This document shows, piece by piece, positions 9,655 to 28,391 of a DNA stretch of 64,000 nucleotides (position 1 is the stretch's first letter; each line of letters starts with the position of its first letter). The notes below the pieces were generated by a model. It did no database searches. It was not told where the DNA came from and was given only the letters and a program-made list of their open reading frames with translations. The stretch covers positions 2,276,824 to 2,340,823 of the forward strand of contig NC_014012.1 of NCBI RefSeq assembly GCF_000091325.1, read 5' to 3'. A program made the translations under genes and the position numbers. The DNA comes from Shewanella violacea DSS12. Its GTDB lineage: Bacteria; Pseudomonadota; Gammaproteobacteria; Enterobacterales; Shewanellaceae.

Positions 9655-12600
9655 TTGATCCAACTAGAAGCGTTTTTTAGCCAGTCAGTGTTATTTGACG
9701 GAATACAGGTTTTATTGGACATGCCACTGCTGAGATTCGATCACAGCGGGCCTATCTTGTCTGGTCAATTTGACTCGGTTCCGACTCTAGGAACAGTTGA
9801 GGGCTGTGGTGTTAGTGATGGCATTATTGATTCGATTGTCACTGCCACATTAGATTGGTCAGCGGGTCCTGTGATTGCTTCAGGCAACACGACTTGCAGT
9901 GTGTGTAGTGATTCCCAGTTACCTTGCATCCATATTGCTGCCATCGCCATCGATTATTTAGCCAAACAAGTGCCTATTACTCCCTATCCCAGTGAGACGA
10001 AACGGGCAGATACAGCATCAAGGCTTTTAAGGACTGAGCTCAATAAACGCTACGATCCTTATCCTAATATGGCCAGACATAGAGTCGTATATTTATTATC
10101 AGTCACTGATGGTGAGCTACACCTGAGCGTCCATAAAGGTTATGTCAGCAAATTAGGTAAATACTCAATCAAGACAGATTTAGGCTTCGAGGTGTTAGAC
10201 CGAGGCAATCTGCCAAAATTTGTGACTCAAACCGATGTTTATTTACTCCATAGGCTAAGAGAGCTAGCCCAAGCTTTAGATACAGGGGCGAGAGATGCTC
10301 TGCAAGAGAGGCTTTCAATAGGATTAGGAGACACTTGCGCTGGTGAGTTTCTTTACCATTTAATTGCAACTCAACGCTGTTTTTGGCTCCATTGCGATCA
10401 AGTTCCTCTTAAAATCGAGCAACATAATCTGGATGATTTTGTCGACCCCAAGGCCTTAATTAAAATAGATTCAGGGCAATTCCTGGACCTTGCCAGTATG
10501 AGCCTAGTATTGACCGATCTAGGGCCTTTTTGGGGTGAATTAAGCGACAAGCCTCTGGCCGAATATTTACGGCAATTAGCGGATGATGACAGGGAATGGG
10601 CACCTAAGCTTAAGATACATCGTGCAAGGGTCGACTTCCCTTGGGATGAACAAAATCATCTGGATATAGAAGTCGCGAGCTTTTCCCTTTGCAGCGAAAA
10701 TTTGGAATGCAGTTTAGCCGACATTTTTGCTCTCGCCAGTGAGTCTCCCCATCTATTAAAACTCGCCTCTGAACTGAGTATTCAGTTGTCAGATTTTCAA
10801 CTTCTTTCATCTGGATTTGAACCTATAGTCTGGCATCAGTTTTTACTTGGGGATCGTGAATTACCTCAGATATTGAGTCAACAAATGGTTGCAATACGAC
10901 GCCTGATGTTGGCAGGCTGGTCCATAGATTTTCAATTAATCAATCGTTATTCCTTAGTACAAGCTCATACATGGTATGGAGAGCTTAGTCATCAAGCCCC
11001 AGATAAACAATGGTTTGACCTTGAGCTAGGAGTCGAAGTTGATGGCAAGAAGATTAATTTACTGCCTTATCTGGTCAAAGCCATAAGACAGGGATTGTTG
11101 CAAAACCTCAGTGATACAGAAACGGTACTCATGGAGCTCGACTCTGGACAGCGCTTGTCGCTGCCTGCCGATAGGATAAAGCAGATCTTATCTGTACTCG
11201 TTGAGCTTTACGAAACAAAGCCGCTGTCGGTGGATGACACCTTAACCATGTCCATGAATCAGTTGACCCGAATTGCTGAACTGGCTGACCGAGATAAAAT
11301 CAACAAGAAAGAGTGGCAATGGCTCGGAAGTCAATGGTTACAAAATAAAGCTCAGCAGCTGTACTCTTATTTGGAAGTCGATGGAAATGATAAAGGCGCT
11401 GTGAGTAAAAACTCTCATGGTAAAAGACCCGGTTTCACGGTTCTACCCCCAGTCGGACTCAATGCTGAGCTCAGAGAATATCAGCAGTTGGGATTAAATT
11501 GGCTGCAATTTTTAAAGAAAAATGAATTTTCAGGCATGCTCGCCGATGACATGGGTCTGGGGAAAACCATTCAGACTCTGAGTAGTATATTACTCGATAA
11601 AGAGGCCGGAAACTTGTCCAGCCCCTGTTTAGTGGTCGCACCAACGAGTCTGTTAGCCAACTGGCTTCACGAAGCCGAGACCTTTGCCCCCGAGCTTAGG
11701 CTGCTGCTCTGGTCCGGACCAAAACGTCATCGTTTACAAGATAAGATTAAGGACTGTGATCTCCTGATCACTAGCTATGGCACCTTGCAACAAGATGTTG
11801 AGTTGTGGGCCAAGCAACATTTTCATCTGGTGATCTTAGATGAAGCCCAGACCATCAAGAATGTGCGTAGCCGAATAAATCGCGTGGTGGGCAGCTTGTC
11901 ATCGACACATAGGCTCTGCTTGACCGGTACACCTTTAGAAAATCACCTGGGTGAATTATGGTCATTGTTTAATTTCTTGATGCCGGGTTTCCTCGGTACT
12001 TATGCTCAGTTTCAGCGGCACTATCAAGTACCCATTGAAAAAGAGCAAGATGATGAGCGTCGTTGTGCATTAGTGCAAAGGATCGCTCCGTTTATGTTAC
12101 GTCGGCTTAAATCTGAAGTTGCCAAAGAGCTGCCCGACAAGACGGTTATTAATGAGTTTATTAGCCTCACTGAAACTCAGAGAGATCTCTATGAAACTAT
12201 CCGTTTAACCATGTCTGAAGAGGTCAGGAAAGCGGTTTCAGTCTCAGGAGTAAAGCGTAACCGATTAGCCATCAGTAATGCCTTACTCAAACTCAGGCAG
12301 GTCTGCTGCCATCCCAAATTACTCAAACTCGATCACTTACAGCAATCTAGCCAAGACAATGTCTATCTTGATACTGGCTGGGATACATCAAATATTGATG
12401 TATCCCATAAGCTGGGCTCGGTTAATGGGCTACAACTAGCCGAAGATGTCAGCAAGCTAGATACTCGCTCCGGAAAACTAAATTGGCTTGCCGATAAGCT
12501 GCCTGGCATGCTCGAAGAGGGCAGGCGGGTGTTAATATTTTCCTCCTTCACCAGCATGCTGACCTTGATAGGTGAACTTTTGGAAAACCTAGGCATTAGT

Positions 12601-12990
12601 TTTGTTGAGCTAACAGGTAAGAGTCGAGACCGTGGGGCATTGGTTAAGCGTTTTCAGCAGCGAGAAGTACCGGTATTTTTAATCAGCTTGAAGGCGGGAG
12701 GCGCGGGTTTGAATTTAACCGCTGCAGACGTGGTTATTCATACCGATCCTTGGTGGAATCCTGCTGCCGAGCAGCAGGCCAGTGATAGGGCTCATAGAAT
12801 TGGTCAGGACAAGTCGGTGTTTGTCTATAAACTCATCTGTAAGGAAACCGTTGAAGAGAGGATACAGCTGCTGCAGGAATCTAAAAATAACTTAGCTCAG
12901 AGTATTTATCAGCAAGAGAGTCTGGCTGTTTCTGATATGACAGGGGATGACTGGCTCGAGTTACTTAAGCCTATAAACTTAGATGACTAG
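9655..12990 (+). CDS. SNF2-family DNA helicase with SWIM zinc finger
   Basis: A 1111-residue SF2 ATPase. A SWIM-type zinc site (C-S-V-C, then C-I-H) lies near residues 80-96. The helicase core starts around residue 595: DDMGLGKT (Walker A, about 630), DEAQ (motif II, about 728), LTGTPLENHLGELW, then the C-terminal domain with LISLKAGGAGLNL and DRAHRIGQ. Such proteins use ATP to move along or remodel nucleoprotein; the bacterial SWIM-SNF2 role is not established. The start is TTG, preceded by GGAAGG at a good distance; no in-frame ATG suits. It is transcribed alone, divergent from galT. A decayed copy of its C-terminal coding part lies at 14404-14600. Confidence 0.9.
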   Translation: MIQLEAFFSQSVLFDGIQVLLDMPLLRFDHSGPILSGQFDSVPTLGTVEGCGVSDGIIDSIVTATLDWSAGPVIASGNTTCSVCSDSQLPCIHIAAIAIDYLAKQVPITPYPSETKRADTASRLLRTELNKRYDPYPNMARHRVVYLLSVTDGELHLSVHKGYVSKLGKYSIKTDLGFEVLDRGNLPKFVTQTDVYLLHRLRELAQALDTGARDALQERLSIGLGDTCAGEFLYHLIATQRCFWLHCDQVPLKIEQHNLDDFVDPKALIKIDSGQFLDLASMSLVLTDLGPFWGELSDKPLAEYLRQLADDDREWAPKLKIHRARVDFPWDEQNHLDIEVASFSLCSENLECSLADIFALASESPHLLKLASELSIQLSDFQLLSSGFEPIVWHQFLLGDRELPQILSQQMVAIRRLMLAGWSIDFQLINRYSLVQAHTWYGELSHQAPDKQWFDLELGVEVDGKKINLLPYLVKAIRQGLLQNLSDTETVLMELDSGQRLSLPADRIKQILSVLVELYETKPLSVDDTLTMSMNQLTRIAELADRDKINKKEWQWLGSQWLQNKAQQLYSYLEVDGNDKGAVSKNSHGKRPGFTVLPPVGLNAELREYQQLGLNWLQFLKKNEFSGMLADDMGLGKTIQTLSSILLDKEAGNLSSPCLVVAPTSLLANWLHEAETFAPELRLLLWSGPKRHRLQDKIKDCDLLITSYGTLQQDVELWAKQHFHLVILDEAQTIKNVRSRINRVVGSLSSTHRLCLTGTPLENHLGELWSLFNFLMPGFLGTYAQFQRHYQVPIEKEQDDERRCALVQRIAPFMLRRLKSEVAKELPDKTVINEFISLTETQRDLYETIRLTMSEEVRKAVSVSGVKRNRLAISNALLKLRQVCCHPKLLKLDHLQQSSQDNVYLDTGWDTSNIDVSHKLGSVNGLQLAEDVSKLDTRSGKLNWLADKLPGMLEEGRRVLIFSSFTSMLTLIGELLENLGISFVELTGKSRDRGALVKRFQQREVPVFLISLKAGGAGLNLTAADVVIHTDPWWNPAAEQQASDRAHRIGQDKSVFVYKLICKETVEERIQLLQESKNNLAQSIYQQESLAVSDMTGDDWLELLKPINLDD

Positions 12991-13028
12991 CTGTCGATTA
13001 ATCGTCCTGTCTCTTGTTGGGTACAGGG

Positions 13029-13727
13029 CTAAATAAACTGATTCAAGAGCAGGCCTTTGCGCTCTTCTTCATCCTTTTTCAAAATCACGGCAATTTTGAG
13101 TTGCAGCTCGGTCTTGAGTAAATCAGCCGAGCTTTGGGCATAATCGGTATCTTGAATTCGCGAGCGTGCCGCGCTGTTATTGATACTGCTAATTTGGTAG
13201 CTATCGATGCGACTATCTAGGCCATTGTACTGAGCGCCATCTGTGCCAGCACTGTCATCGATACTCGCACTTGCAGCATCGATGGCTGTCAGTGCAGCAT
13301 TGGGATCGCTGCTATCGAGTCCTGACACAAAATTATCCTGTCCCAGCACTTCTGCCGCGATGACATTGATCTCATCAGTTAGCTGATTTAGCTCGGCTTG
13401 TATAGCCTGTTTATCATAAATTGGGTTTCCCGCCAGTATGGTGAGCTCCCTGGCTCTGACAAGGTTGTCGGTAATAGAGGCGTATTGACTGGCTTTAATA
13501 TTGAGCATACCTTGCTCATCTCGTGCATTTCTGGCGCGTATCTCTGCCTCATTGATACTGGATGTGAGTCTATTGGCGATCTGTAGGCCTGCAGGGTCGT
13601 CTGCTGCCTTATTTATCTTACGTCCGCTACTGAGCTTCTCTATCAGTTCTTGGCGCTTCTCTTGCAGTTTCTCGAAGTTACTTAAATGCGAGGACTGTGC
13701 GCTTGGTAGTTTCATCTCTAGCCCCAT
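13029..13727 (-). CDS. Short atypical flagellin-like protein
   Basis: A 232-residue protein with flagellin ends: LSSGRKINKAADDPAGLQIANR near residues 31-52 (D0/D1 N-terminal helix) and ARSRIQDTDYAQSSADLLKTELQ near residues 183-205 (C-terminal helix). Normal flagellins begin MAxxVNTN and end in LLAQ-type helices; here the beginning is MGLEMKLPSAQ and the end is ERKGLLLNQFI, and the variable middle is nearly absent. It stands alone, far from any flagellar gene in the window, so it may be a minor or divergent filament protein, or not assembled at all. Start could be 13727 or the ATG at 13715. Decayed copies of its middle lie at 15336-15730. Confidence 0.7.
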   Translation of the reverse strand: MGLEMKLPSAQSSHLSNFEKLQEKRQELIEKLSSGRKINKAADDPAGLQIANRLTSSINEAEIRARNARDEQGMLNIKASQYASITDNLVRARELTILAGNPIYDKQAIQAELNQLTDEINVIAAEVLGQDNFVSGLDSSDPNAALTAIDAASASIDDSAGTDGAQYNGLDSRIDSYQISSINNSAARSRIQDTDYAQSSADLLKTELQLKIAVILKKDEEERKGLLLNQFI

Positions 13728-13867
13728 ATTTGTGTCATTAGCACTCTAGGCTAATTATCTAACTAGGCAGGTCAAAAAACAAACGTTTAAGCCGAGTGTT
13801 TAGAGCAAATCGAAGTAATAAAACCCAGCTTATACCTACAACTTATAAAGAGGCGTTATACGGATTG

Positions 13868-14299
13868 TTAAAGCGGTCGTGACTCTCCCTGCAGGGTGAC
13901 AACTAGCTTACGCTCACCCGCTGAATCTCTTGGCTCACACAGATAGATCCCTTGCCATATACCCAGGTTAAAATGGCCATTAGTGATAGGAAGCGTCAAT
14001 GATACGCCCAATAGACTGGATTTAAGGTGAGCCGGCATGTCATCCGGGCCTTCATAGGTATGGGTATAATAAGGTTCATTTTCAGGCGCGAGACGATTGA
14101 AATAGCGTTCGAAGTCGACCCGTACACTGGGATCGGCATTTTCATTAATGGTTAACGCGGCGGAGGTATGTTGCAGATGGATATGGGCTAAGCCTATGCT
14201 GAATTTTTTAATCTCAGGGATCTGCTCATAGATTTCGTCTGTGATCAGATGAAATCCCCGAGGTTTAGCAGGTAAATTAAATTCTTTTTGATACCAGAT
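13868..14299 (-). CDS. yjbQ: YjbQ-family protein (UPF0047) with apparent ATC start
   Basis: An uninterrupted frame of 143 residues that matches YjbQ throughout: it begins xWYQKEFNLPAKPRGFHL, contains LAHIHLQHTSAALTINEN, the acidic FERYFN block, THTYEGPDDMPAHLKSSL, and ends CEPRDSAGERKLVVTLQG. The HxxHTSAxL and DDMPAH motifs are the metal site of this family, for which weak thiamine-phosphate synthase activity has been reported. The codon where the family has its initiator Met is ATC. A GAGGAG site lies 8 bases upstream of that ATC (14308-14313), and a TGA stop lies four codons further back, so no ATG, GTG or TTG can serve. Either ATC is used, or the gene has just lost its start. Confidence 0.8.
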   Translation of the reverse strand: MWYQKEFNLPAKPRGFHLITDEIYEQIPEIKKFSIGLAHIHLQHTSAALTINENADPSVRVDFERYFNRLAPENEPYYTHTYEGPDDMPAHLKSSLLGVSLTLPITNGHFNLGIWQGIYLCEPRDSAGERKLVVTLQGESRPL

Positions 14300-14403
14300 G
14301 ACTTTCTCTCCTCACTCTTTATTCTTTAAATTAGACTGACAGGAATATATATTTAAGTTAACTCATTTTCAGTTTCGTGAGTAACCGCTAGTCTGCCAGC
14401 AGA

Positions 14404-14600
14404 CTAGATACTGCTGGGATGAACTCCTACCTATTCTACCAGGGCTTGGGAGCATGGCTCAGTTACCACAAGGCTAAGTATAATTGGAACACTGCTGGAT
14501 ACCTAGGGCATAAGTATCCTCAATTGACGGGAAAGAGTCGAACCTAGGGCTGTGTTTAAGCGATTGAAGCCGCGAGAAAGCCGATACTTCTGATGGGGTT
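14404..14600 (+). pseudogene. Decayed fragment of the SNF2 helicase gene
   Basis: Strongly similar to bases about 12366-12670 of the intact helicase with gaps: CTAGATACTGCTGGGAT matches the TTGATACTGGCTGGGAT region, and AAGAGTCGA followed by GTTTAAGCG and CGCGAGAAA matches the KSRDRGALVKRFQQRE region. All frames are broken. The orientation is the same as the parent. Bases 14601-14755 may hold a more degraded 3' end but the match is weak. Confidence 0.7.
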
Positions 14601-14764
14601 GGATTTTTCGATAAACTCAGGAGTATTAATACACCTGCTGCAGGTATAAAACATAGGTCAGCCTGGAATATTTATGAGTAATAGATGCTTGGAGAGTGTG
14701 GGATGATGAGCCGAGGGGCTTAATTCTGGATGACCAAGTCTATAATATAGCCCTGAATAATAAA

Positions 14765-14788
14765 TAGCCCTGTTAAGCAACAGGGCTA
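14765..14788 (-). terminator. Terminator of the 132-residue membrane protein gene
   Basis: A 10-bp perfect stem (TAGCCCTGTT, 14765-14774 / 14779-14788) with a 4-base loop; on the minus strand it is followed by a TTTATTATT tail. Confidence 0.7.
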
Positions 14789-14827
14789 AATTAGTTGATT
14801 ATCTAATTGGATTTCTAACCAAAATGT

Positions 14828-15226
14828 CTAAGCAAGGGATTGGTTCTTACTCGGTTTAAAGAAAGAGGTTATTGCTAAGATAAAACCTAATGCGCCAATG
14901 GCATTGACCGCTATTCCAGCAAATCGCCAAAATTCTGAAGGCCATAGACTGTGATCTTTAGTTAACCCACCGTAAATGGTCATAGCGGCGAGTAAAAAAG
15001 CTAAAAGAGAGATTGAAAAATAAAGGGGTTTCCACGCTTTGTTTAAACTGAAAACTAACAAACTTCCCGCAATTAACACCACCACGATTGCCATCATTGA
15101 GGCGGTAGGACCGATAGATTGTTCGCCGTTATGAAGCTGCCAGAGCCCGATAGCATTCCACAAAATACATAAAAATAGATGAGTGAGTTGCACTTTTAAG
15201 GCTAAAGCGTAGTTTGTTTTTAACAT
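14828..15226 (-). CDS. Four-helix membrane protein, function unknown
   Basis: A 132-residue protein with four hydrophobic helices (about residues 11-30, 42-60, 68-88, 102-122) and a basic Lys/Ser tail. It has no motif I recognise. The gene has its own terminator and sits between the decayed helicase fragment and the decayed flagellin copies, so it lies inside the disturbed block. Other small, four-span proteins of this look are common in Shewanella but their roles are not known to me. Confidence 0.6.
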   Translation of the reverse strand: MLKTNYALALKVQLTHLFLCILWNAIGLWQLHNGEQSIGPTASMMAIVVVLIAGSLLVFSLNKAWKPLYFSISLLAFLLAAMTIYGGLTKDHSLWPSEFWRFAGIAVNAIGALGFILAITSFFKPSKNQSLA

Positions 15227-15335
15227 GCTAAATTTCCCTGATTACGAGAAACCAAATCTGGTGCGGCTTCTCAATTGTGATAAGCGGGGATCTTGCTCCT
15301 AGTAGAGCAATAATACAAATAAAAAACACCCATGT

Positions 15336-15510
15336 GTCGCCTTGGTATTGATACTGCTAATTTGGTGTTATTGATGTGATTATCAGGGAAATATACTGAT
15401 CACACTAGGTGCCTGCACTGTTGCCCATGTGAGCATTTATTTCTTATCTAGACACACTAGTATCCTGAGGTTCTTGCTAGTGAAAATTAGGTTCGCTGAA
15501 GATTGTAAAC
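15336..15510 (-). pseudogene. Decayed copy A of the flagellin-like gene middle
   Basis: Bases 15346-15370 carry TATTGATACTGCTAATTTGG, identical to the flagellin gene around 13179-13198, and the match continues with substitutions through TATACTGATCACAC and CTGCACTGTTGCC to GACACACTAGTATCCTG (flagellin 13325-13341). The orientation matches the intact gene and the frames are broken. Confidence 0.65.
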
Positions 15511-15547
15511 TCAAGCTGCTACCTAAATGAGATTGCTATTACTTGAG

Positions 15548-15730
15548 TCTTATTTGGTGTCATTGATGTGACTATCAGGGCGTTGTATTGAACACCCAAG
15601 GTGCTAGTACTCTTGCCCATGTGAGCATTTATCTCTTTATTTATACTTATACAGAATTTTCCATAATCCTATCTAGACACACTAGTATCCTGAGTTTTTT
15701 CTAGACCTGATTAGGTATGTTGAAGATTGT
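15548..15730 (-). pseudogene. Decayed copy B of the flagellin-like gene middle
   Basis: Repeats copy A in order: ATTTGGTGT, GATGTGACTATCAGGG, TTGCCCATGTGAGCATTTAT, CTAGACACACTAGTATCCTG, TGAAGATTGTAAA. Copies A and B resemble each other more than either resembles the intact gene, so B was probably made from A after decay began. Up to 15869 nothing else is supported. Confidence 0.6.
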
Positions 15731-15869
15731 AAATTCAAGCAGACATCGAAAATTAAGCACAAAGGGACTGTGAATTCTTACTGCCATTAGGACGGGATCA
15801 GTGTCGTCATGTTAAATAATTGCTAAGTTAAATGAGTTTGCTGTCACTTGCGTCTTAGTTTGTGTATAA

Positions 15870-16472
15870 ATGAAGTACAGCCTCCAGATATCAGGTCGAC
15901 CGTTAATGTTTAATCTATCGTTTTGCCACATCAACTTGAGTCGTGTCTGCTATCAGTTTTTTACCATAGCGCTTTTCACCTTAGGGTTATTGACTATAGT
16001 GCTATTGACCTCGGTCCAGGGTATCGCCCAGCCGAGTTTGGATTATGAGGTGCAGACCCGAGAGGGCGAAAGCTATTCATTGTCACAATATTCTGGCCAA
16101 GTGATCTATGTGGATTTTTGGGCATCCTGGTGCGGTCCTTGTCGAAAGTCATTTCCCTGGATGAATCAGATGCATCATAAGTATGCAGCCCAGGGGCTCA
16201 AGATCATTGCTATCAACTTAGACAATGACTTATCACATGCCCGCCAGTTTCTCAGCCAGATCTCCGCCGATTTTACGATCGCCTATGATCCCAATACTCA
16301 GGTGGCAGGAGAATTTGATATCTTGGGTATGCCAACTAGCTACCTGTTCGATAGGAAAGGTCAATTGGTCGCTACACATGTGGGTTTCTTTTCGGAGCAT
16401 AAGGCGGACTATGAATCCGAAATTGTCCACTATCTTAAACAAGCACAGCCTTTACAGCGTAAATACAAGTAG
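15870..16472 (+). CDS. TlpA-like periplasmic thioredoxin
   Basis: A 200-residue protein with a hydrophobic N-terminal helix (about residues 28-50, a membrane anchor or signal peptide) and a TlpA/ResA-type thioredoxin fold carrying W87-C88-G-P-C91-R in FWASWCGPCRKSFPW, the cis-Pro in MPTSYLFD, and ends soon after the last helix. It should reduce or make disulfides in envelope proteins. The start could also be the ATG at 15906. Its stop (16470-16472) is 47 bases from the probable DUF4266 start, and the next two genes are tightly packed, so it is the first gene of a four-gene module; the Cys-rich DUF4266 protein is its likely client. Confidence 0.85.
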   Translation: MKYSLQISGRPLMFNLSFCHINLSRVCYQFFTIALFTLGLLTIVLLTSVQGIAQPSLDYEVQTREGESYSLSQYSGQVIYVDFWASWCGPCRKSFPWMNQMHHKYAAQGLKIIAINLDNDLSHARQFLSQISADFTIAYDPNTQVAGEFDILGMPTSYLFDRKGQLVATHVGFFSEHKADYESEIVHYLKQAQPLQRKYK

Positions 16473-16519
16473 TGAGTCGAATGAGCACGTGTGAGGCAGC
16501 CCATAAATTAGAGGTAGAG

Positions 16520-16762
16520 ATGATGACGTTCGAGACTGAACTGATTAAATCAGCCAGAAGCTTGTCGTTACTGGTGTGTTTATCTTTGACGGCCTGTTCG
16601 AGTTTAGGCGTAGAGCCATGGCAGCGGGATCAGTTTGCTCGTGAAGATATGGCCTTGGATAGTGAAAAGTTGGATCTAACCTTGGACGATCATATCTATT
16701 TCAGTAAAGAGGGCACCAGTGGGGGGCGCTCGCTCGCAGGGGGCGGTTGTGGTTGCAACTAA
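16520..16762 (+). CDS. DUF4266 lipoprotein with GGGCGCN tail
   Basis: About 80 residues from the ATG at 16520 (an ATG at 16481 and a GTG at 16472 are possible but spoil the signal peptide). A hydrophobic signal ends in LTAC, so it should be a lipoprotein. The mature part reads SSLGVEPWQRDQFAREDM, a helical acidic stretch, HIYFSKEGTSGG and the tail GGGCGCN, which is the conserved layout of DUF4266. The CxC tail could bind a metal, accept a disulfide from the TlpA-like neighbour, or be modified. Its end overlaps or abuts the start of the DUF3570 gene. Confidence 0.8.
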   Translation: MMTFETELIKSARSLSLLVCLSLTACSSLGVEPWQRDQFAREDMALDSEKLDLTLDDHIYFSKEGTSGGRSLAGGGCGCN

Positions 16763-18152
16763 AACACCAGGAAATACTGCAAATCAGACTCTAACTGAGT
16801 CACAAGCATACACACAAAGTAGGCTAAAAACGGGTGCCGGTGACGGGGGAACTTCGATTGCCGATGCGCTGTCGATGGCAAGCTTTGCGCTACTAAGCAT
16901 GACAAGCTCGGTGGCCAGTGCTACGGAGACAGCCAGCTTAGATGCTGTTGAGATAGACTCACCTAAAATAGATGCCGCTTTACTCTATTATCTGGAGCAG
17001 GACAGGGTGACGGTGGCCGAGGGAATATTTAACCTCAAATTGCCCCTAGGGGATAAGCGCATTTATGAAGCCAAGTTGGTGCTAGATACCTTAACGGGTT
17101 CCTCAGCCAATGGCGCTGTGCCTCAGGATCAACGCCAGACTTTTACCCGCCCATCCGGTAATGGCGAATACACTATAAATTCAGGTAACACTCCGTTAGA
17201 TGACACCTTCAAAGACACCCGGGTGCAGCTCAGCGGTAACTGGGCCGAAATATGGTCCCTTGACTGGAGCAGTAATCATGGTGTTTATCTGTCGAGGGAA
17301 TATGATTATACCTCCATGGGAATTAACTCGGCACTGGCGCGCTCGTTTAATAAGAATAATACTCAGCTGTCTTTAGGCATGGCTTATTACTATGATTTAG
17401 TCGACCCAGTGGGAGGACGGCCCCTAGCCATGAGTAATATGGTATTTCGGGATGACTTTGACTCCCACGCCGAGTTTCGTACTGAATTTGATAAGACTCG
17501 CCAGATAGCGAGTACCGATAAACAGACTGTGGATCTCAGCGTCGGCTTAACCCAGATCATCAATCGACATATGCTGGTGCAGCTCAGCTACAACCTGTCT
17601 TCTTTGCAAGGCTATATGACAGATCCCTACAAGGTACTCAGTCTGGTGGATGCGTCGGGAACCCGTGAGGCATATTTTTATGAGAGCCGACCCGATGAGC
17701 GTCTCAAGCAGAGCCTGTATCTGTTTAGCAAGCACGCCTTAGCCACTGGGGTCACAGATCTGGCTTACCGTTATAGCTATGATGATTGGGGCGTGGCCTC
17801 ACATACGTTCGAGAGTCACTATCGTTACAATTTCACCTCGTCCTTTTTTGGTCAGTTGCACCTAAGATATTACCGACAAGAAGCGGCTCACTTTTATCGG
17901 GTGTTCCTGAAATCAGAGGAAGTGCTGCCTGAATTTGCATCGGCAGATTATCGTATCGGAAACATGAATACCTATACGTTTGGGATAAAAATAGGTCATA
18001 CCTTAGCCGATGGCACTAAGGCCAGCTATCGTCTTGAATATTATCAACAAGATCCCTATTCAAACGGAGACCAAGCCCTAGGTCAGTTGGCTCAACATGA
18101 GTTATATCCCAGCGTTAAGGCAATTATTTTTCAGTTGGGATTGTCATTCTAA
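16749..18152 (+). CDS. DUF3570 outer-membrane barrel protein
   Basis: A protein of about 467 residues starting at GTG 16749 (a GTG at 16719 is also possible; AGGGGG precedes 16749). After a weakly hydrophobic leader (SMASFALLSMTSSVASA) it is made of alternating polar/aromatic strands and ends in Phe, as expected for an outer-membrane barrel; the layout fits DUF3570. Early in the mature part is D-T-L-T-G-S-S-A-N-G-A (Asp codon at 17085), which resembles the D-x2-[ST]-G-A-[ST] site where ApbE attaches FMN. The next gene is an ApbE enzyme, so covalent flavinylation of this protein is an attractive inference. The gene overlaps the DUF4266 stop by a few bases. Confidence 0.8.
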   Translation: MVATKTPGNTANQTLTESQAYTQSRLKTGAGDGGTSIADALSMASFALLSMTSSVASATETASLDAVEIDSPKIDAALLYYLEQDRVTVAEGIFNLKLPLGDKRIYEAKLVLDTLTGSSANGAVPQDQRQTFTRPSGNGEYTINSGNTPLDDTFKDTRVQLSGNWAEIWSLDWSSNHGVYLSREYDYTSMGINSALARSFNKNNTQLSLGMAYYYDLVDPVGGRPLAMSNMVFRDDFDSHAEFRTEFDKTRQIASTDKQTVDLSVGLTQIINRHMLVQLSYNLSSLQGYMTDPYKVLSLVDASGTREAYFYESRPDERLKQSLYLFSKHALATGVTDLAYRYSYDDWGVASHTFESHYRYNFTSSFFGQLHLRYYRQEAAHFYRVFLKSEEVLPEFASADYRIGNMNTYTFGIKIGHTLADGTKASYRLEYYQQDPYSNGDQALGQLAQHELYPSVKAIIFQLGLSF

Positions 18153-18272
18153 TGGGGCCAGCTCATCTTCCTGCCAATGCTATATTCATCTGTGCTGATG
18201 GGATGGCAAGTCTATGATGATTAGCTTGTATATAATGAGTGACGAAATACCCCACCAAGAGGATACTCGTCT

Positions 18273-19160
18273 ATGAGCGGAGACTTAATATTGGTGCCTA
18301 CTTCCAGGGGACATCATGCAAGCTTCAATGCCATGGCCAGTCGGTGTGAAGTGCTTATTCGCTCAACGGACAGAGAGTTGGCCTATACCATGGCCTATCG
18401 GGCCCTAGAGGAAACACGGCGTATAGAGCAGAAGTACAGTCGTTTTAATCCCTCTAGTCTACTGAGCAGACTCAATGCCAATGCCGGTAATTGGCAGAAT
18501 ATAGACGCCGAAACTTCGGCGCTGTTGTCATTTTCCAAGCAATGCTTCGACTTAAGTGCTGGCATGTTCGATATCACTGCGGGCCCTTTATTAACACTTT
18601 GGACCTTTGGCGCAGATGCAAACTTGCCGACGTCATCTTCAATCGAGAGGGCACTTAAACATGTGGGCTTAGACAAGCTGACCATAGAAGCAACACGTTT
18701 ATACCTACCCCTAAACATGAGTCTGGATTTTGGCGGCATCGCTAAGGAATATGCCAGTGACAAGGCTGCAAGTCTGTTAACGCTTCACTATCCTCATATA
18801 CCCGCCTTGGTGAATTTAGGCGGTGATATAGCCTGTGCTTCGATTGTTGAGAAACCATGGCGGGTGGGAATAGAAGATCCTAGCAAGCTGGATAATGCTA
18901 CTCGAACGATAAGCTTAACGGGTGGAGGGCTGGCCACCAGCGGCCATACACGACGTTATCTCGTGGATAAGGGCAAACGATACGGACATATTTTAAACCT
19001 TACAACAGGCTATCCGGTGGAACGTGCACCCTTGTCTGTGACCGTTATGGCCGCCAACTGTTTGGTGGCAGGTATGTTATCCAGTATCGCAATGTTAAAA
19101 GGGGCCAATGCTCAGGCCTTTATGGCAAGTCAGAATGTCGATTTTTATATCTGCAGTTAG
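18273..19160 (+). CDS. apbE: ApbE-family FAD:protein FMN transferase
   Basis: A 295-residue member of the ApbE family, which moves FMN from FAD to a Thr or Ser of an extracytoplasmic protein. Visible motifs: KYSRFNP-SSLLSRLN, DITAGPLL, DFGGIAKEYASD (150s), VNLGGDIA (180-187), GGLATSGHTRRY, GHILNLTTGYPV. No clear signal peptide or lipobox is seen at the proposed start. The usual C-terminal metal motif A-D-A-x-x-T reads A266-G267-M-L-S-S271, so the Asp is Gly and the Thr is Ser. It closes the TlpA-DUF4266-DUF3570 module after a 120-base gap. Confidence 0.85.
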   Translation: MSGDLILVPTSRGHHASFNAMASRCEVLIRSTDRELAYTMAYRALEETRRIEQKYSRFNPSSLLSRLNANAGNWQNIDAETSALLSFSKQCFDLSAGMFDITAGPLLTLWTFGADANLPTSSSIERALKHVGLDKLTIEATRLYLPLNMSLDFGGIAKEYASDKAASLLTLHYPHIPALVNLGGDIACASIVEKPWRVGIEDPSKLDNATRTISLTGGGLATSGHTRRYLVDKGKRYGHILNLTTGYPVERAPLSVTVMAANCLVAGMLSSIAMLKGANAQAFMASQNVDFYICS

Positions 19161-19286
19161 CATATCTTGGTTAGTGACTTGTAATAGCTTATTGCTTTTG
19201 TTAGTTTAATTGACGACATAATATGTCGTCTGTTAGCTTATGGCGTACAAGTGACTCATACCAATCGGTATATACAGGAGCAAGGA

Positions 19287-19586
19287 ATGCTGGAAAAAAT
19301 ATTTATCTACACCATTGCTGGGTTTGTGGTTATTTTAAAATGGTTAGCTATAGTGCTAGCGCCAACATTGGCATTGGGAATGGTGGGGCTGATTATCTCT
19401 GATATCCGTGATGTGATGGATATGAAACTTATCTTTATCTTGATGAGCTTAGGTGCCCTGATAGGCGCTATCTTGGCGGAAACAATCCGACGGAAATATG
19501 GGTTAATCGAATTTGATGGCAAGCTTATCGGTCACCCAGATATCGATGGGCATAATGTGTTAGCAACAAAGTCGACAAACTCTTAG
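19287..19586 (+). CDS. Small two-helix membrane protein
   Basis: About 99 residues from the ATG at 19287, which has AGGAGCAAGGA before it; an earlier GTG (19251) lacks a site. Two hydrophobic helices (about residues 5-33 and 46-66) are followed by a short basic and then polar tail (IRRKYGLIEFDGKLIG). I do not recognise the family. It lies 126 bases after apbE and may or may not belong to that module. Confidence 0.55.
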   Translation: MLEKIFIYTIAGFVVILKWLAIVLAPTLALGMVGLIISDIRDVMDMKLIFILMSLGALIGAILAETIRRKYGLIEFDGKLIGHPDIDGHNVLATKSTNS

Positions 19587-19603
19587 GTGCTATTGTAGAG
19601 TGG

Positions 19604-19644
19604 AAGGCACAAGGCACAAGGCACAAGGCACAAGGCACAAGGCG
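19604..19644. repeat. 7-bp tandem repeat, five copies plus a partial
   Basis: The unit AAGGCAC is repeated five times from 19604 to 19638 with a partial AAGGCG after it, directly behind the small membrane gene. The rest of the gap to 20011 shows nothing I can support. Confidence 0.9.
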
Positions 19645-20011
19645 AACAGCTAGACCTTAAGTTTTATACTCTATTCCTTGCGTTATTTTCGGCGTGATAA
19701 AGGGCATTTTCTGAAGCTTTGAATCTTTCATCAGTGCTGATATTTTGTTGTTTGCCTTTCATTGATACTGACAGCAACACCTATGCTGACAATGAGGTTT
19801 ATGGTTTTATCGACTTCAGAATGTTAGCCATATTTTATGGCATGTTTATCTAGAATGGGTCTTTCACGCTAGCTTTAAATCACCAGTGCCTAGTTAACTA
19901 TTTTATTTATTCCCTCATTGAGATAGGTTCAATATTGATTTGAGTGTCTCTTAAAAAAGAGATTAAACTCCATCCCCCTGAAGCCAGAAGAACACAAGTA
20001 TCGAGTCAGTT

Positions 20012-22069
20012 TTAATCTGTATTTGTGGCCATCCGTCTGCTATTTTCTTGTGTCTGTTGGCATCTATTCTGAGGATCAAAACCATTATCATCACGGTAAT
20101 GGGCACATAAATCCTTTAACATCTCACTCCAGGGAGCATCGCCCTGGTATTTTTCCAGGCTGTACCATCTGTTTTGACGGGTATCGACCAAGATTAGGTC
20201 TTCATAATCAGGTAGCATGGCTAACTGCCAGTGCTGAAAATATACCGAACGTTGCTTCTTAGCAATCATCTCTTGATAAATGGAGGGAACCAACACTGCT
20301 CGCCCATTATCTCTGATCTCATACTTAGACATGGTTTCAGAGAGTACCTTAGCCTCATCGATAAAGCTGGCATTGAGCGATTTGACCGGGATGGAGGATT
20401 CAACAAACACACTTAGTGGGATAACCTGGCTCATATCTTTGGGTAAAATATGGCCATCGAATGCTTTATCCTTCGTCTCTAATGATAGATCCAGCTCTTC
20501 AAATAGGCTTGGTGCTATGTCAGTTAAAGAGTAAATTCCTTGAATCTTCTTGGCTGTTTGTTTCTCTTCCTGTGGGCCAAATCGTCGATAAGCCATCAAG
20601 ACATTTACTTGTTCCTGACTCAGTACATTGGTGCCGTGACCCCAAGCATTAACATTGAGTTTAGCCTCATCCTTAGCTTGGTCCCCTTGTAAGGTGTCTT
20701 TTTCTAACATGAAACCTTCACCGTGATCTGAGATCAGGTATACCAAGGCGTTATCTAAGAAACCTCTGTCTTCTAGTGTGTCCATAAATTGCTGAAACTG
20801 AGCATCAACTTTTGGAAGCATGGTTTGATACATGAAGTGATTATAATTGCCCTTCCAGGTGGCATCGTTCACATCGATAAAGTTTTTAGAAGTGAAGGGC
20901 CAATGTAACTGACAAAAGTGAACGGCTAAGAAATTGGGGCGCTTCGTTGAGAGGGAATCCGTGATTTTACGGTTAAATAATAAGGGGTCATAGGCTTTTC
21001 CATAGGCCCGATTCATATATAGATAAGGAAAAAGTGATTCGGAAACACTAAGCTTTAGAAACAGGTTGATCAAAGGGATGTCACCTATATTGGCTATGAT
21101 GGCATCGGCGGCGCCGATCTTCGGACCTATTACCTTATCGAATCCATACTCCATATCTATTTGATTGAAACGTCTTTCGTCTATTCCATAGGTGGTTTGA
21201 TAGCCTAGAGCTTTGAGCTCTCTGATAAGTGGTAACGGTTTTTTGATCAGCTCAGGTGGAGCCAGGTTAAACCTTGCCCCATGAGTAACTGGGTACTGGC
21301 CGGTGAGTATACTCATCCAGGCAACATAGGTCCGACCTAGAGGTGTATAGGTCTTATCATAGAGATGGGCTTGTTGAATAAATTGATTTATACCTGGGGT
21401 AAAATGCTTGTCGGGATCGCGAAAGTTAAGATGATCAGGTCGCAGGGCATCTATACCGATAATGAAAACATTGGGGCTGGTTTTATCTGTTGGCGCATAA
21501 TGTTCGGAGCTGCCGCTGGTGGAGATGCCAACCATGAATAGGCCTATAGCGAGAAGAGAGTAGCTAAGGCGTTTTCCTATCAGGGTGACGAGTCCCCATA
21601 TAAAAAAACTACACAGGACTAATATCAAGGGAATCAAAATCCATGGATTTACTAAGAGGGTATCTCTGAAAAACCCGAGTAATGATGTTGGATACCAGTA
21701 AGCATTGATGCCTAATACCAAGGTAATATGGCTCAAGATGATAATTAACCATATCTGAGTTCTGATCCCAGCGTCTCTGAATATAGTGAACCAAGGCCTA
21801 CAGGAGACTGTAATAATGATCGACCAGAGCACATGTAAAACTAACACCAAGAAGACAAATTGTAATAAATCTAGAATGAGCCATAGACTGTGTAGATTAT
21901 CATCACCCAGATGAGTCATGGCTTGGGCAATAGAAAATGATGAGTAGTACTGCAGCAGCTGCTTAAAATTATATAGAGCGACCAAAGATAACAGCATCAT
22001 GGCGTTAGTGCGCCAAAATGTTCGTACCATGGATAGGTCATCGGATATATTTTTGTGTTGCTGGGTCAT
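20012..22069 (-). CDS. Membrane-bound sulfatase/phosphotransferase-fold enzyme with Thr nucleophile
   Basis: A 685-residue protein with about five N-terminal membrane helices (residues 20-182) and a periplasmic alkaline-phosphatase-superfamily domain. Metal ligands are visible in VFIIGIDALRPDH (D207), LISDHGEGF and NAWGHGTN. Aligning LTGQYP with the sulfatase signature puts T247 (GRTYVAW) where sulfatases have the Cys/Ser that becomes formylglycine. A Thr at this place is typical of phosphoethanolamine and phosphoglycerol transferases, so transfer of a phospho-group to envelope glycans or lipids is more likely than sulfate release. It is downstream of the 86-residue gene on the same strand. 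Confidence 0.75.
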   Translation of the reverse strand: MTQQHKNISDDLSMVRTFWRTNAMMLLSLVALYNFKQLLQYYSSFSIAQAMTHLGDDNLHSLWLILDLLQFVFLVLVLHVLWSIIITVSCRPWFTIFRDAGIRTQIWLIIILSHITLVLGINAYWYPTSLLGFFRDTLLVNPWILIPLILVLCSFFIWGLVTLIGKRLSYSLLAIGLFMVGISTSGSSEHYAPTDKTSPNVFIIGIDALRPDHLNFRDPDKHFTPGINQFIQQAHLYDKTYTPLGRTYVAWMSILTGQYPVTHGARFNLAPPELIKKPLPLIRELKALGYQTTYGIDERRFNQIDMEYGFDKVIGPKIGAADAIIANIGDIPLINLFLKLSVSESLFPYLYMNRAYGKAYDPLLFNRKITDSLSTKRPNFLAVHFCQLHWPFTSKNFIDVNDATWKGNYNHFMYQTMLPKVDAQFQQFMDTLEDRGFLDNALVYLISDHGEGFMLEKDTLQGDQAKDEAKLNVNAWGHGTNVLSQEQVNVLMAYRRFGPQEEKQTAKKIQGIYSLTDIAPSLFEELDLSLETKDKAFDGHILPKDMSQVIPLSVFVESSIPVKSLNASFIDEAKVLSETMSKYEIRDNGRAVLVPSIYQEMIAKKQRSVYFQHWQLAMLPDYEDLILVDTRQNRWYSLEKYQGDAPWSEMLKDLCAHYRDDNGFDPQNRCQQTQENSRRMATNTD

Positions 22070-22143
22070 ATTTTTCCCTATTAGTCAGCACTTATTCCTT
22101 CATCTGTAACTAGTCTATTGAGTGTCCAGTGTCTCATCTTCCT

Positions 22144-22404
22144 TCACTGGTTAAGTTTATTTTTTTTAGACGGAGTGACGGTATATTTATCATTTTCTTC
22201 GATGACACTGTTTAATTCTGTGGCGGCGGGCCAATCTCCCAGTATCAGATATCGCTCAGCAAGACTCGAGCCAGATGGGCTATCGGTTTTTATCGACATT
22301 CTAGATTGATAGACCTGCCAAGCTGGCACAATATTGACTGCCAGTAACAGAATAATGATGCAGCTAAGCCCTATTTTTATTGTGACTGTTGAGAAACTCT
22401 TCAC
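22144..22404 (-). CDS. Small single-span membrane protein
   Basis: An 86-residue product with one hydrophobic N-terminal helix (residues 8-28) and a polar outside part (SLAERYLILGDWPAATELNSV), ending in a Lys/Asn tail. It may be a signal-anchored periplasmic peptide. It stands 74 bases upstream of the sulfatase-fold gene on the same strand and may be its operon partner. I do not recognise it. The gap 22405-22721 between this gene and the divergent L,D-transpeptidase is AT-rich; nothing further is supported. Confidence 0.45.
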   Translation of the reverse strand: MKSFSTVTIKIGLSCIIILLLAVNIVPAWQVYQSRMSIKTDSPSGSSLAERYLILGDWPAATELNSVIEENDKYTVTPSKKNKLNQ

Positions 22405-22721
22405 CGCTATAATAATCCCTTGTTAGCGTTTATATGAGTCTTAGTCAGCATAACTAAGGCTTCTTGTTTAAAAGTATAGTTGGCTTTTTTCTTACCAGAC
22501 TATTCTTAACTGTCTAATAGAGCGGTGAGTTCACTGGATTATGAGGCCATATAATTTGTTTCTATCTGGATTTTGAACTAAAAGTTAAGGTAGCGGCTCA
22601 ATTATGCTTAAACCTATGATTGGCTGGGCTTGTGCCTAGCAGACGTAGCATATCTATGTCTATGCATCAGCTGTGATCATTCTTTTTTACGCATTTAACT
22701 CTATTTGCCTGGGGAGTACCT

Positions 22722-25516: not shown

Positions 25517-26104
25517 ATGGTGTCGCTTATGACTGTTTCACAGCTATCGCTACAGCTGATGCTTGCCGGAGCATTTTTTATCGCTGCAATTGTGATGGAT
25601 CTCTATAAAGAGAAGATCCCCAATAAACTCTGCTTATTGGCGATATTTTCTGGTTTTGCGATCAATGCCTATTATGCACAATTAGAGGGGGTGTTAATGG
25701 CATTTTTCGGCTTTGCCTTGGCTTTTATCATACTGTTTCCTACGTTTTTATTTCGCATCTTAGGTGCCGGAGACATTAAGCTAATGATGGGGATAGGTGC
25801 CTTGATGGGGCCAGATTTACTCGTCGCTAGTCTGGCTTATGGTATCGTTGCCGGCGCAGGCACCAGCTTACTCTTGATCATATGGAAGACAGGATTCTCA
25901 GGTCTAGCTAAGACCTTGAAACGATATTGGGATTGTTTCTATCTACGCAGTTATTTTAAACCCGAACCAGGAGAAGCGGCTGGGCTACGCGTACCTTATG
26001 CTCCCGCTCTTGCCCTTGGCTGGTTATGGGCTTGCTCATTAGACAGTGACATCTCTGAGTTATACTTCAACTGGCATATCTATTTAGGTTTGGGAGTCAC
26101 ATAG
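25517..26104 (+). CDS. tadV: Tad prepilin peptidase (TadV/CpaA)
   Basis: A 195-residue membrane aspartyl protease of the A24 family with about six hydrophobic segments. The two catalytic Asp residues are visible: D28 in AIVMDLYKEKIPN and the GAGDIKLMMG motif near residue 85. It should cut the Flp pilin and the TadE/TadF pseudopilins after their Gly. Length is normal for the short TadV type, which lacks the methylase domain. It lies 49 bases after flp. Confidence 0.9.
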   Translation: MVSLMTVSQLSLQLMLAGAFFIAAIVMDLYKEKIPNKLCLLAIFSGFAINAYYAQLEGVLMAFFGFALAFIILFPTFLFRILGAGDIKLMMGIGALMGPDLLVASLAYGIVAGAGTSLLLIIWKTGFSGLAKTLKRYWDCFYLRSYFKPEPGEAAGLRVPYAPALALGWLWACSLDSDISELYFNWHIYLGLGVT

Positions 26105-26220
26105 ATATTAGAGTGTTTAAGTACATAAAGTCTTTCAAAACAGATTATCAATCTAGTGATAACTGCTCACCTATGAAGATTAACTGGCATCAATATTAAT
26201 CGATCCGGGAGGCCGATATT

Positions 26221-27546
26221 ATGTTGCGACTAAGTACAGATAGCCCTTCCATAAATGACAGTAAGTCCAGTAATAAACATAATGCTAATGAACTGGCTCC
26301 CCGTCCAACTTCAATTAAAGATACAGGAATTCAAGAATCAGTATTACTTGAACTCATGCTTAAGCACCTTCTGAGTGGTGGGGTACTGACTAAGGCGCAA
26401 CTCGTCAATAAAATGGGGATAACTGGGGGCATTATCCAGGAGTTATTCGACAAGGCTAAGGGCTTGGCCTGGGTTGAAAATCGACAGTCATCGGCCGAGG
26501 GACACATGCGTTTTGCCCTAAGCGAAGCGGGGGATCGGTATGCCAAGCAAGCTTCTATGAAGAGTGGCTATCGTGGTTTGGTTCCTGTGCCACTGGCTCA
26601 ATATTCAAAAATTTGTCGTCTGCAGTCTAGTAGAAGAAACCCTATCACCTTCGAGATGCTACAAAACGGGCTTAAGGCCTTGGTTCTGCCCAATGATCTG
26701 CTGCATAAAATAGGTCCGGCGCTCAATTCAAGCAGGCCGGTACTCATCTATGGTCCGCCGGGCACGGGGAAGAGTTATTTATGTCGAAACCTTAATGCGA
26801 CCTTAGGTGACTCAGTATTAATTCCCTATGCGATTGCTATTGGGACCGAAGTTATTCAGGTGTATGACCCTCAACTTCACCACGCAGTAGATAATAATAA
26901 TGAGTCGGCTCAGCTGGATCTTGTTCAGGGGCATGATCCTCGTTGGATTGAATGTAAACGTCCCTTGAGGATCACAGGTGGAGAACTCACGGCTGAGATG
27001 CTGGAAGTGCAATTTGATAGTCACAGTCGCACTTATATGGCTCCTATTCAGCTTAAGGCCAACAATGGCATCCTGTTATTGGATGATTTAGGCCGCCAGC
27101 GTATCAGTGCGAAACAACTTTTCAATCGTTGGATTATTCCCATGGAAGAGAGGCGTGATTTTCTGTCCATGCAGTCAGGTGAGCATTTTGAGATCCCTTT
27201 CGAGTTAATTCTACTATTCTCTACTAACCTTAATCCTAACGAACTGGTCGATGATGCTTTTTTGAGACGGCTCGGATATAAGATCCACTTCGATGCCCTT
27301 GATGAGCCCTTGTATCGAAAAATCTGGTTTCAGGTATGTGAAGAACAGGGACTCAGCTGCAGTGAGGAGATGTTTCAACACTTAGTAAATGATTATCATC
27401 ACTTACTAGAGAAGCCCTTGATCCCTTGTTATCCACGTGATTTGTTAGGGATCATGGGAGATCAAATCAGTTTTATGGAGCTGAAACCTGTGGTGACCAA
27501 GGCCTTGATTGCTGAAGCTTGGTCTATCTATTTTGTTCAGGCTTAA
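26221..27546 (+). CDS. AAA+ ATPase embedded in the Tad locus
   Basis: A 441-residue cytosolic protein. Residues about 40-110 look like a winged-helix part (LSGGVLTKAQLVNKMGITGGIIQ), followed by a AAA+ domain with Walker A GPPGTGKS (residues 179-186), Walker B ILLLDDLGRQ and a sensor region LILLFSTNLNPNEL, then DAFLRRLGYKI as the arginine-finger area. This is not one of the standard Tad ATPases (TadA, TadZ). Its place between the peptidase and RcpC suggests a role in assembly or control of the pilus. The exact subfamily is uncertain, MoxR-like being the closest I can name. Confidence 0.75.
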   Translation: MLRLSTDSPSINDSKSSNKHNANELAPRPTSIKDTGIQESVLLELMLKHLLSGGVLTKAQLVNKMGITGGIIQELFDKAKGLAWVENRQSSAEGHMRFALSEAGDRYAKQASMKSGYRGLVPVPLAQYSKICRLQSSRRNPITFEMLQNGLKALVLPNDLLHKIGPALNSSRPVLIYGPPGTGKSYLCRNLNATLGDSVLIPYAIAIGTEVIQVYDPQLHHAVDNNNESAQLDLVQGHDPRWIECKRPLRITGGELTAEMLEVQFDSHSRTYMAPIQLKANNGILLLDDLGRQRISAKQLFNRWIIPMEERRDFLSMQSGEHFEIPFELILLFSTNLNPNELVDDAFLRRLGYKIHFDALDEPLYRKIWFQVCEEQGLSCSEEMFQHLVNDYHHLLEKPLIPCYPRDLLGIMGDQISFMELKPVVTKALIAEAWSIYFVQA

Positions 27547-27578
27547 CGTTCAGCTTAATACGTGCAAAGGAGCTTTCG

Positions 27579-28391
27579 ATGAACAATAAAACCATGTTAT
27601 TCGTCTTGCTATCACTCGCCTTCGGTGTGGTGGCGGTTTTTTTAGCTCAAAGTTGGCTCGAGTCTAACAGTGAGACTGGCGGACCAGAGAATACATCCAC
27701 TGTGATCACTATGGCAACCTTAGTTCCTTTGGGGGCGATACTGGAGCGAAAGCATCTAAAATTGACCCCTATGCCAAAATCAGTGATCCCTGAAACGGCC
27801 ATTAAAACCTTCGAAGAGGCTGAGGGCATGGTGGTTAAACACAATCTTTATACCGGAGAAATTCTGCGCAGTGAGCGGATTATCAAGAAGGGAGAGGGCA
27901 GTACATTAGCGAGTCTAATTAGCCCTAATATGCGAGCTGTAACCATCAGGGTGAATGATGTCGTCGGGGTCGCAGGATTTCTATTACCGGGCAATCGTGT
28001 GGACGTGCTTAACTTATTTAAGAAAGACGGCGCGTTACACACGGATATAGTATTAGCCAATGTTAAAATTCTTGCCATAGATCAAAGATCATCCAATGAT
28101 GAGAATAAGCCCAAATTGGTCAGGGCTGTGACTCTCGAGCTGAGTCTAGAGCAGGCGGAGATCTTACTGATCGCCAAGGGGCGTGGAAAGTTGCAATTGG
28201 CATTAAGAAATCCCAATGACTCGGCGGAAGTTGAACTAGCCTTAATCAATGAGACAGAAAAGAGGGAGAAGCGACCTGTGAGTAATATGGTGATGGCTCC
28301 TAAGAAAATAGTTCGTGTTTCATCAGAAAGTAAGTCAAAGGTCTATCTGCTCAAGGGGATGAAGGAGCAGGTTGTTAAGGTGAGTAATTAG
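27579..28391 (+). CDS. cpaB: Flp pilus assembly protein CpaB/RcpC
   Basis: About 270 residues from the ATG at 27579 (AAAGGAG before it; an ORF start 60 bases earlier overlaps the AAA gene and is not needed). A signal anchor (MLFVLLSLAFGVVAVFLA) is followed by a SAF domain with LVPLGAILERKHLKL and a C-terminal domain with RVNDVVGVAGFLLPGNRVDVL, both typical of CpaB/RcpC. In the periplasm this protein works with the secretin RcpA at the outer membrane. Confidence 0.9.
   Translation: MNNKTMLFVLLSLAFGVVAVFLAQSWLESNSETGGPENTSTVITMATLVPLGAILERKHLKLTPMPKSVIPETAIKTFEEAEGMVVKHNLYTGEILRSERIIKKGEGSTLASLISPNMRAVTIRVNDVVGVAGFLLPGNRVDVLNLFKKDGALHTDIVLANVKILAIDQRSSNDENKPKLVRAVTLELSLEQAEILLIAKGRGKLQLALRNPNDSAEVELALINETEKREKRPVSNMVMAPKKIVRVSSESKSKVYLLKGMKEQVVKVSN

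Follow-up and report, generated by a model that had tools for sequence, protein, structure and literature searches.

The question raised by this locus is how a protein that probably resides in the outer membrane could receive a covalent flavin from an ApbE, a flavin mononucleotide (FMN) transferase, that has no signal peptide. The locus lies in a stretch of 64,000 nucleotides from Shewanella violacea DSS12 (assembly GCF_000091325.1, contig NC_014012.1, positions 2,276,824 to 2,340,823 of the forward strand), referred to here as the window. Four adjacent genes, all on the + strand, were confirmed by open reading frame (ORF) calls and Pfam matches: TlpA (Redoxin, E-value 2.4e-23), a DUF4266 lipoprotein (2.1e-20), a DUF3570 protein (8.1e-172) and ApbE (1.1e-67), with ORF spans of 15870-16472, 16472-16762, 16719/16749-18152 and 18273-19160, respectively. 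The first-pass annotation, made from the sequence alone, had described this packed set as a thioredoxin, a GGGCGCN-tailed lipoprotein, a DUF3570 protein and an FMN transferase, and this description was borne out. The explanation we favour, at a rough probability of 0.6 for the scheme as a whole, is that Ser119 of DUF3570 would be loaded with FMN in the cytosol, that the protein would then be exported, and that electrons would run from DsbD through TlpA and DUF4266 to the FMN. The features are as follows.

15870..16472, + strand: TlpA/ResA-like thioredoxin with an N-terminal hydrophobic segment and the active site WCGPC (CGPC codons from 16131)
16520..16762, + strand: DUF4266 lipoprotein with lipobox LTAC and C-terminal GGGCGCN (CGCN codons from 16748); ORF open from GTG 16472
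16749..18152, + strand: DUF3570 protein, probable outer-membrane barrel; start at GTG 16749 or GTG 16719
17085..17105, + strand: flavinylation motif D113-T-L-T-G-S-S119 (numbered from GTG 16749); predicted FMN acceptor Ser119, codon 17103-17105
18273..19160, + strand: ApbE of 295 amino acids without signal peptide; K158-E159, S223, H239 and G267 (the metal-site Asp in other ApbEs)

The cassette is a further member of the published DUF3570/thioredoxin/DUF4266/ApbE systems, since the module is described by Meheust et al. 2021 (PMC8238504). Clusters of ApbE, DUF3570, a thioredoxin-like protein and DUF4266 were reported there with and without DsbD, 316 of them not co-located with DsbD, together with the conserved C-terminal CxC of DUF4266, and the earlier label of an uncharacterised module therefore does not hold. 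In the literature searched, DUF3570 and DUF4266 (PF12094, PF14086) were mentioned only in PMC8238504. The same study found the DUF3570 of Chlorobium luteolum to be flavinylated by its cognate ApbE, and abolishing this required a change of both [ST]GA[ST] serines. As the window protein has the conserved site beside an ApbE, the proposal that DUF3570 is an ApbE target gained support. Not found in the literature searched was a signal-less ApbE subfamily with Gly in place of the metal-site Asp and with a Glu next after the Lys of the active site. The available text of PMC8238504 mentions neither a signal-less ApbE nor a changed metal site, and its first survey excluded ApbEs without a signal peptide.

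The window ApbE matched Pfam PF02424 with 228.8 bits, against a cut-off of 25.6. Its open frame comprises only 305 amino acids against 295 from the ATG, so that, as read from the sequence, there is no room for a signal peptide; the secretion signal that is typical, albeit not obligatory, for ApbE is absent. A hydrophobic segment before the ApbE domain was found in 0 of 41 ApbEs that share the window's Lys-Glu and Ala-Gly (KE/AG) and in 27 of 42 with Lys-Gly and Ala-Asp (KG/AD), signal peptides being judged by a simple hydrophobicity rule, not a trained predictor, and 15 ApbEs that were not anchored or typed being excluded. In two of 30 further loci a hydrophobic stretch was present, in each case ahead of the earliest start codon that the ORF offers.

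Alignments with solved ApbEs showed Gly267 in place of an Asp and Glu159 in place of a Gly. This Asp is one of three conserved active-site residues (review PMC12052999), so that of the Ser/His/Asp set the window enzyme keeps Ser223 and His239 and has lost the third. The counterpart of this Asp in E. coli ApbE, D280, is a ligand of metal 1, and E169 is a ligand of metal 2 (PMC4767422, Table 3); Lys158 of the window corresponds to E169, as inferred via the Salmonella alignment. Among 152 ApbEs, 98 had Glu and Gly at the two positions, 51 had Gly and Asp, and 3 had other combinations, with the active-site His and Ser present in all 152. In a tree computed without these two columns, all 98 Glu-Gly ApbEs were separated by a single split from the others (0 of 51 on their side; support 0.60). 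Covariation of E159 and G267 as many independent events was rejected for this reason; the KE/AG ApbEs are one subfamily, in which the exchange may have been a single event.

KE/AG ApbE and DUF3570 occurred largely in the same genomes, a pattern that, like the gene set, the motif, the ApbE subfamily and the missing signal peptide, is read from sequence. In 60 genomes, DUF3570 was present in 35 and DUF4266 in 34, the sole difference being G057, which had a weak DUF3570 match; ApbE of the window's type (typed KE/AG by sequence) and full-length DUF3570 were found in an identical set of 23. For 274 Gammaproteobacteria, at cut-offs of at least 140 bits for ApbE and at least 165 bits for DUF3570, the numbers were 39 genomes with this ApbE, 40 with full-length DUF3570 and 36 with both. 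ApbE was present without DUF3570 in G093, G115 and G251, and DUF3570 without ApbE in G111 as well as in G092, G097 and G291, the last three having partial ApbE matches. The 30 loci taken from this search, including the window, had Lys-Glu in 29 cases and Lys-Lys in one (L227). At L228:1495-3497 and L230:1495-3498, an ApbE of the window's type adjoins a porin gene, which Pfam assigns to Porin_4 in L228, and these 3.8-kb loci lack DUF3570.

The D-x2-T-G-S-S that had been noted from codon 17085 reads D-T-L-T-G-S-S. The pattern D..[ST]G[AS][ST] was held by only 278 of 20,000 shuffles of the window DUF3570, so the match exceeds chance on the window protein alone. Across 103 aligned homologues, of which 6 are Bacteroidota-type, the motif columns were conserved: position 1 was D in 97, position 5 was G in 79 and position 7 was S or T in all 103. 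FMN is attached to the last Ser/Thr of D-x-x-[ST]-G-A-[ST] (PMC12052999), and the predicted acceptor is therefore Ser119, not the Thr proposed earlier. In a model target, changing the motif Gly to Ala lowered flavinylation, to about 50% (PMC12052999). The window protein has a single site, TGSS, rather than two [ST]GA[ST] sites; single-site and GSS variants recur in relatives with a linked ApbE.

The motif was compared with the presence of apbE in 40 loci surrounding DUF3570 or ApbE matches, each 15-18 kb long, and in 118 loci among the matches listed in a genome-wide scan for the DUF4266 tail, 112 of which hold DUF4266. This gave 144 DUF3570s, 24 of which were dropped for short flanks. Loci were assigned as Bacteroidota-type by their DUF4266 tail, one of them (L092) being recorded as a Klebsiella metagenome-assembled genome (MAG), and the non-Bacteroidota group includes one Flavobacteriaceae-type locus (L085). 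In this latter group, [DE]..[ST]G[ASPG][ST] was present in 50 of 53 proteins with apbE in the stretch compared to 9 of 29 without (Fisher 1.8e-9, kinship ignored), and the stricter D..[ST]G[AS][ST] in 46 of 53 compared to 9 of 29. Both patterns were absent from the Bacteroidota-type loci with apbE (0 of 38), 23 of which had another [ST]G[AS][ST]. Among non-Bacteroidota proteins, the motif Gly was found in 49 of 52 with apbE and in 8 of 28 for which the stretch held none; Bacteroidota-type proteins had it in 0 of 41. The acceptor was nevertheless Ser or Thr in 28 of 28 aligned non-Bacteroidota proteins without apbE in the stretch. For the Bacteroidota pattern, which required A-S, the figure of 41 of 44 is a match rate and not an acceptor test, with 3 proteins unmatched; free of this bias is the count from the alignment column above, with its 6 Bacteroidota-type rows.

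The expectation that the motif would be conserved only where apbE is linked was thus partly borne out, outside the Bacteroidota-type loci, and failed within them. A group of clusters labelled n-type bears on it as well: TlpA, DUF4266 and DUF3570 with no ApbE within 15-16 kb were found in 14 of the 40 fetched loci, 12 of these being n-type, yet in 9 of 13 n-type genomes an ApbE lies on the same contig at a distance of 12-24 kb. The n-type clusters were dropped as a flavin-free control on this account. In two relatives (L039, L071) a Gly-motif DUF3570 without nearby apbE was accompanied by a KE/AG ApbE elsewhere in the genome. DUF4266 was considered as an ApbE target itself, by virtue of an E-x2-S-G-A/G in its tail, and this is unlikely, as many members have A or R where the hydroxyl residue would be.

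Several variants of DUF3570 and its clusters were recorded alongside. The DUF3570 of a Colwellia MAG (L126:2489-3805) carries D..[ST]GAS three times in a stretch of about 30 residues, and its locus lacks apbE; KE-type ApbEs are encoded elsewhere in that genome, and two of these adjoin other DUF3570s. Three motifs each were also seen in the DUF3570s of L127, L149, L173 and L185. DUF3570 at L038:6433-7922 (genome G003) lies in two overlapping frames (434 and 62 amino acids) and may be broken or mis-sequenced. In L192 and L194 the n-type genes lie within a large cluster. That of L192 contains OMP_b-brl proteins and two proteins with a pair of CxxCH each, namely an HZS_alpha-domain lipoprotein and a LamG protein; about 12 kb from its n-type genes lies an ApbE whose N-terminus looks signal-like.

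The ApbE type and the motif type went together. Each of the 48 loci with a KE/AG ApbE had a DUF3570 with the Gly motif; of the 42 with a KG/AD ApbE, 41 (exception L098) had [STA]-[SA]-A-S instead, with Ser in place of Gly in the summary count. Typing used two ApbE columns, with L094 left untyped and four partial ApbEs (L095, L127, L086, L098) typed on one column, and the non-Gly pattern itself required A-S. The KE/AG class comprised Shewanella, other Proteobacteria, L127 and L149 (recorded as Campylobacterota) and green sulfur bacteria, and the KG/AD class comprised Bacteroidota-type loci plus L090 and L132 (recorded as gammaproteobacterial MAGs). The classes therefore largely track lineage and do not represent many independent pairings. 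Two cassettes closely related to that of the window directly follow PepSY, DUF2271 and DUF4198 genes (L067:3287-5520, L038:3293-5474), and these DUF2271s read DGVSSAT and DGMSSAT, with Ser where the motif Gly would be expected.

Tentatively, and at odds a little below even, these results may be joined into a wider reading. A cytosolic ApbE subfamily would flavinylate unfolded precursors of outer-membrane proteins before Sec export, so that the flavin would leave the cytosol already bound, and its metal site would have been rebuilt by loss of the catalytic Asp and gain of a Glu beside the Lys. For the DUF3570s of Bacteroidota and of some gammaproteobacterial clusters, their partner, a second class of ApbE, would act on a non-canonical [ST]-S-A-S at the same motif position.

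Green sulfur bacteria offered a comparison with the pair studied experimentally. In 395 genomes of the phylum of L146, ApbEs of the window's type scored at least 141 bits and were apart from the rest (118 bits or less). The genomes with such ApbEs span 1.9-3.3 Mb, except one of 4.1 Mb (G475), and the FMO protein of green sulfur bacteria was found in 9 of 10 of those tested compared to 0 of 3 controls. One locus, L263, has the gene order TlpA, DUF4266, DUF3570, ApbE, DsbD, a DUF3570 with two sites (DALSGAS and DAVSGAS) and a signal-less ApbE with GGFGKEY and AAG. We take L263 to be the C. luteolum DSM 273 locus (ABB24424.1/ABB24423.1 pair). If this holds, the experimentally active C. luteolum ApbE appears to belong to the KE/AG subfamily. 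Most of the DUF3570 in the C. luteolum experiment was in the pellet (PMC8238504), which suggests that flavinylation does not need a folded barrel.

The place of flavinylation in the cell, the barrel, and the direction and end of the electron path are what we infer from these data. DUF3570 is probably an outer-membrane barrel, judging by its C-terminal pattern and the reading of the first-pass annotation: its C-terminus resembles that of outer-membrane proteins, the last residue being F or Y in 83 of 136 homologues and hydrophobic residues being favoured at odd positions. The beta-moment signal was weak (z = 1.1). Its start is probably GTG 16749 or GTG 16719, within the DUF4266 gene, because a start at ATG 16875 would remove the signal sequence as placed by relatives. 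DUF4266 probably starts at ATG 16520 rather than GTG 16472, given the lipobox position. In the favoured scheme, Ser119 of the DUF3570 precursor would receive its FMN from the signal-less ApbE while still in the cytosol, ahead of export by Sec, and the exported flavinylated protein would insert into the outer membrane. Thiol electrons would pass from a DsbD encoded elsewhere to TlpA and on to the CxC tail of the DUF4266 lipoprotein, and from there to the FMN of the barrel and an acceptor at or outside the outer membrane. The window DUF3570 has no Cys residues, so the thiol chain would end at DUF4266. Three DsbD_TM proteins are encoded elsewhere in the genome, and a second cassette, at L034:45-10345 (C1:1297044-1307344), has a stand-alone DsbD_N ORF after apbE, which supports a link of the thiol system to DsbD.

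Some observations weigh against this scheme. The long N-terminal extension of L080, a KE/AG ApbE outside the hydrophobicity count, contains a hydrophobic stretch, DUF3570 had no relative in the PDB by sequence, and no DsbD was found among the ORFs of window positions 12500-22500. Fur-like boxes at or above the mean plus 2 standard deviations were found in 1 of 42 upstream regions and were not enriched, so that an iron role is not supported and iron regulation of the cassette was rejected; the 42 regions include L075 and L078 from the tail scan. The literature searched, which held few subscription papers, gave no earlier case of exported proteins being flavinylated by a cytosolic ApbE, and the available part of PMC12052999 gave only Klebsiella pneumoniae and eukaryote cases. 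PMC8238504 describes a signal-peptide-truncated apbE for a DUF2271 pair and calls the strategy used with C. luteolum 'similar', wording that is not explicit on truncation of the C. luteolum ApbE.

Loss of the metal-site Asp could in addition alter activity, although the C. luteolum pair speaks against this. It may be that the cassette ApbE is impaired or otherwise employed, and that another ApbE of the genome, for example one adjacent to Nqr-type genes, flavinylates DUF3570 in the periplasm before insertion. The Asp is a metal ligand (PMC4767422, Table 3), and its replacement by Gly fits this account. So do the two further ApbEs of the genome, one of which has by eye a lipoprotein-like N-terminus and lies beside FMN_bind and NqrF-like domain genes. 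We consider it unlikely all the same, as the KE/AG subfamily is co-inherited with DUF3570, the active-site Ser and His are kept in every ApbE compared, and the active C. luteolum pair appears to be KE/AG, provided that L263 is the locus in question.

Slightly less improbable, but still doubtful, is that TlpA and DUF4266 mainly carry out thiol or metal chemistry at a pore in the outer membrane, with the flavin accessory in one branch. In favour of this, GGGCGCN forms the end of 37 of 38 DUF4266s of relatives found by whole-protein similarity (the genome-wide tail scan selected on GGGCGCN and is hence no measure of its conservation), and TlpA and DUF4266 accompany DUF3570 also in clusters without nearby apbE, mostly without the motif Gly. 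The retained acceptor Ser/Thr in such clusters and the distant ApbEs of the n-type genomes argue against it. That there is no flavin, and D-x2-T-G-S-S is a structural turn of the barrel, is very improbable: Asp and Ser are indeed near-invariant even without nearby apbE, but a homologue was directly flavinylated (PMC8238504) and the motif class pairs with the ApbE subfamily. Cytosolic loading of the DUF3570 precursor by its own ApbE is the reading we retain.

The surroundings of the cassette were also inspected. FNR-like matches were present in 6 and ArcA-like matches in 8 of the 42 upstream regions, which is few, with four perfect FNR-like sites in close relatives. Promoter and terminator signals were no better than chance, and plasmid records gave no match. 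Upstream, between a 1111-amino-acid helicase-like gene and the cassette, window positions 13029-15226 (- strand) hold a short flagellin-like gene (232 amino acids) and a 132-amino-acid ORF; in L069 the helicase-like gene lies directly upstream. About 6 kb downstream, a Tad/Flp pilus-like cluster occupies window positions 25517-36355, with an A24 peptidase assigned by Pfam and the remainder by eye. In three genomes (L034, L036, L037) a second DUF3570 cassette begins about 70-120 base pairs after a Tad-like pilus cluster on the same strand. The DUF4266 of this second cassette (248 amino acids in L034) has no lipobox, and apbE is followed by a DsbD_N ORF (Pfam for L034).

In the usual picture, flavinylation outside the cytosol involves a periplasmic ApbE and periplasmic flavin adenine dinucleotide (FAD). 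If the favoured scheme is true and exported barrels receive their FMN from a dedicated cytosolic ApbE, FAD would not have to be exported, and no periplasmic enzyme need reach a membrane-inserted site; whether Sec passes a flavinylated chain then becomes a question. It would also follow that ApbE tolerates a rebuilding of its metal site. The two enzyme-substrate classes of DUF3570 make both cytosolic loading and the metal-site change directly testable in laboratory strains.

Compared with known systems, the ApbE of Nqr/Rnf type (FAD:protein FMN transferase, a lipoprotein) belongs to the same Pfam family and has the active-site Ser and His in common with the window type; it differs in its lipoprotein signal, K-G and A-D, the window type being signal-less with K-E and A-G. 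The C. luteolum pair, if it is L263, shares the gene order and a signal-less ApbE with GGFGKEY and AAG, and differs by its two motifs (DALSGAS, DAVSGAS) and a DsbD directly downstream. With the 'DsbD systems' of Meheust et al. 2021 (PMC8238504) the window shares four families, and DsbD-less clusters are known there too, but the window has one site instead of two, with Ser for Ala in the motif (TGSS). The cytoplasmic ApbE of K. pneumoniae, which serves a cytosolic fumarate reductase (PMC12052999), likewise has no signal peptide; its target stays cytosolic, whereas that of the window is exported. Set beside these systems, the cassette is ordinary as a published module, and what is noteworthy is its dedicated signal-less ApbE, the changed metal site and the two motif classes.

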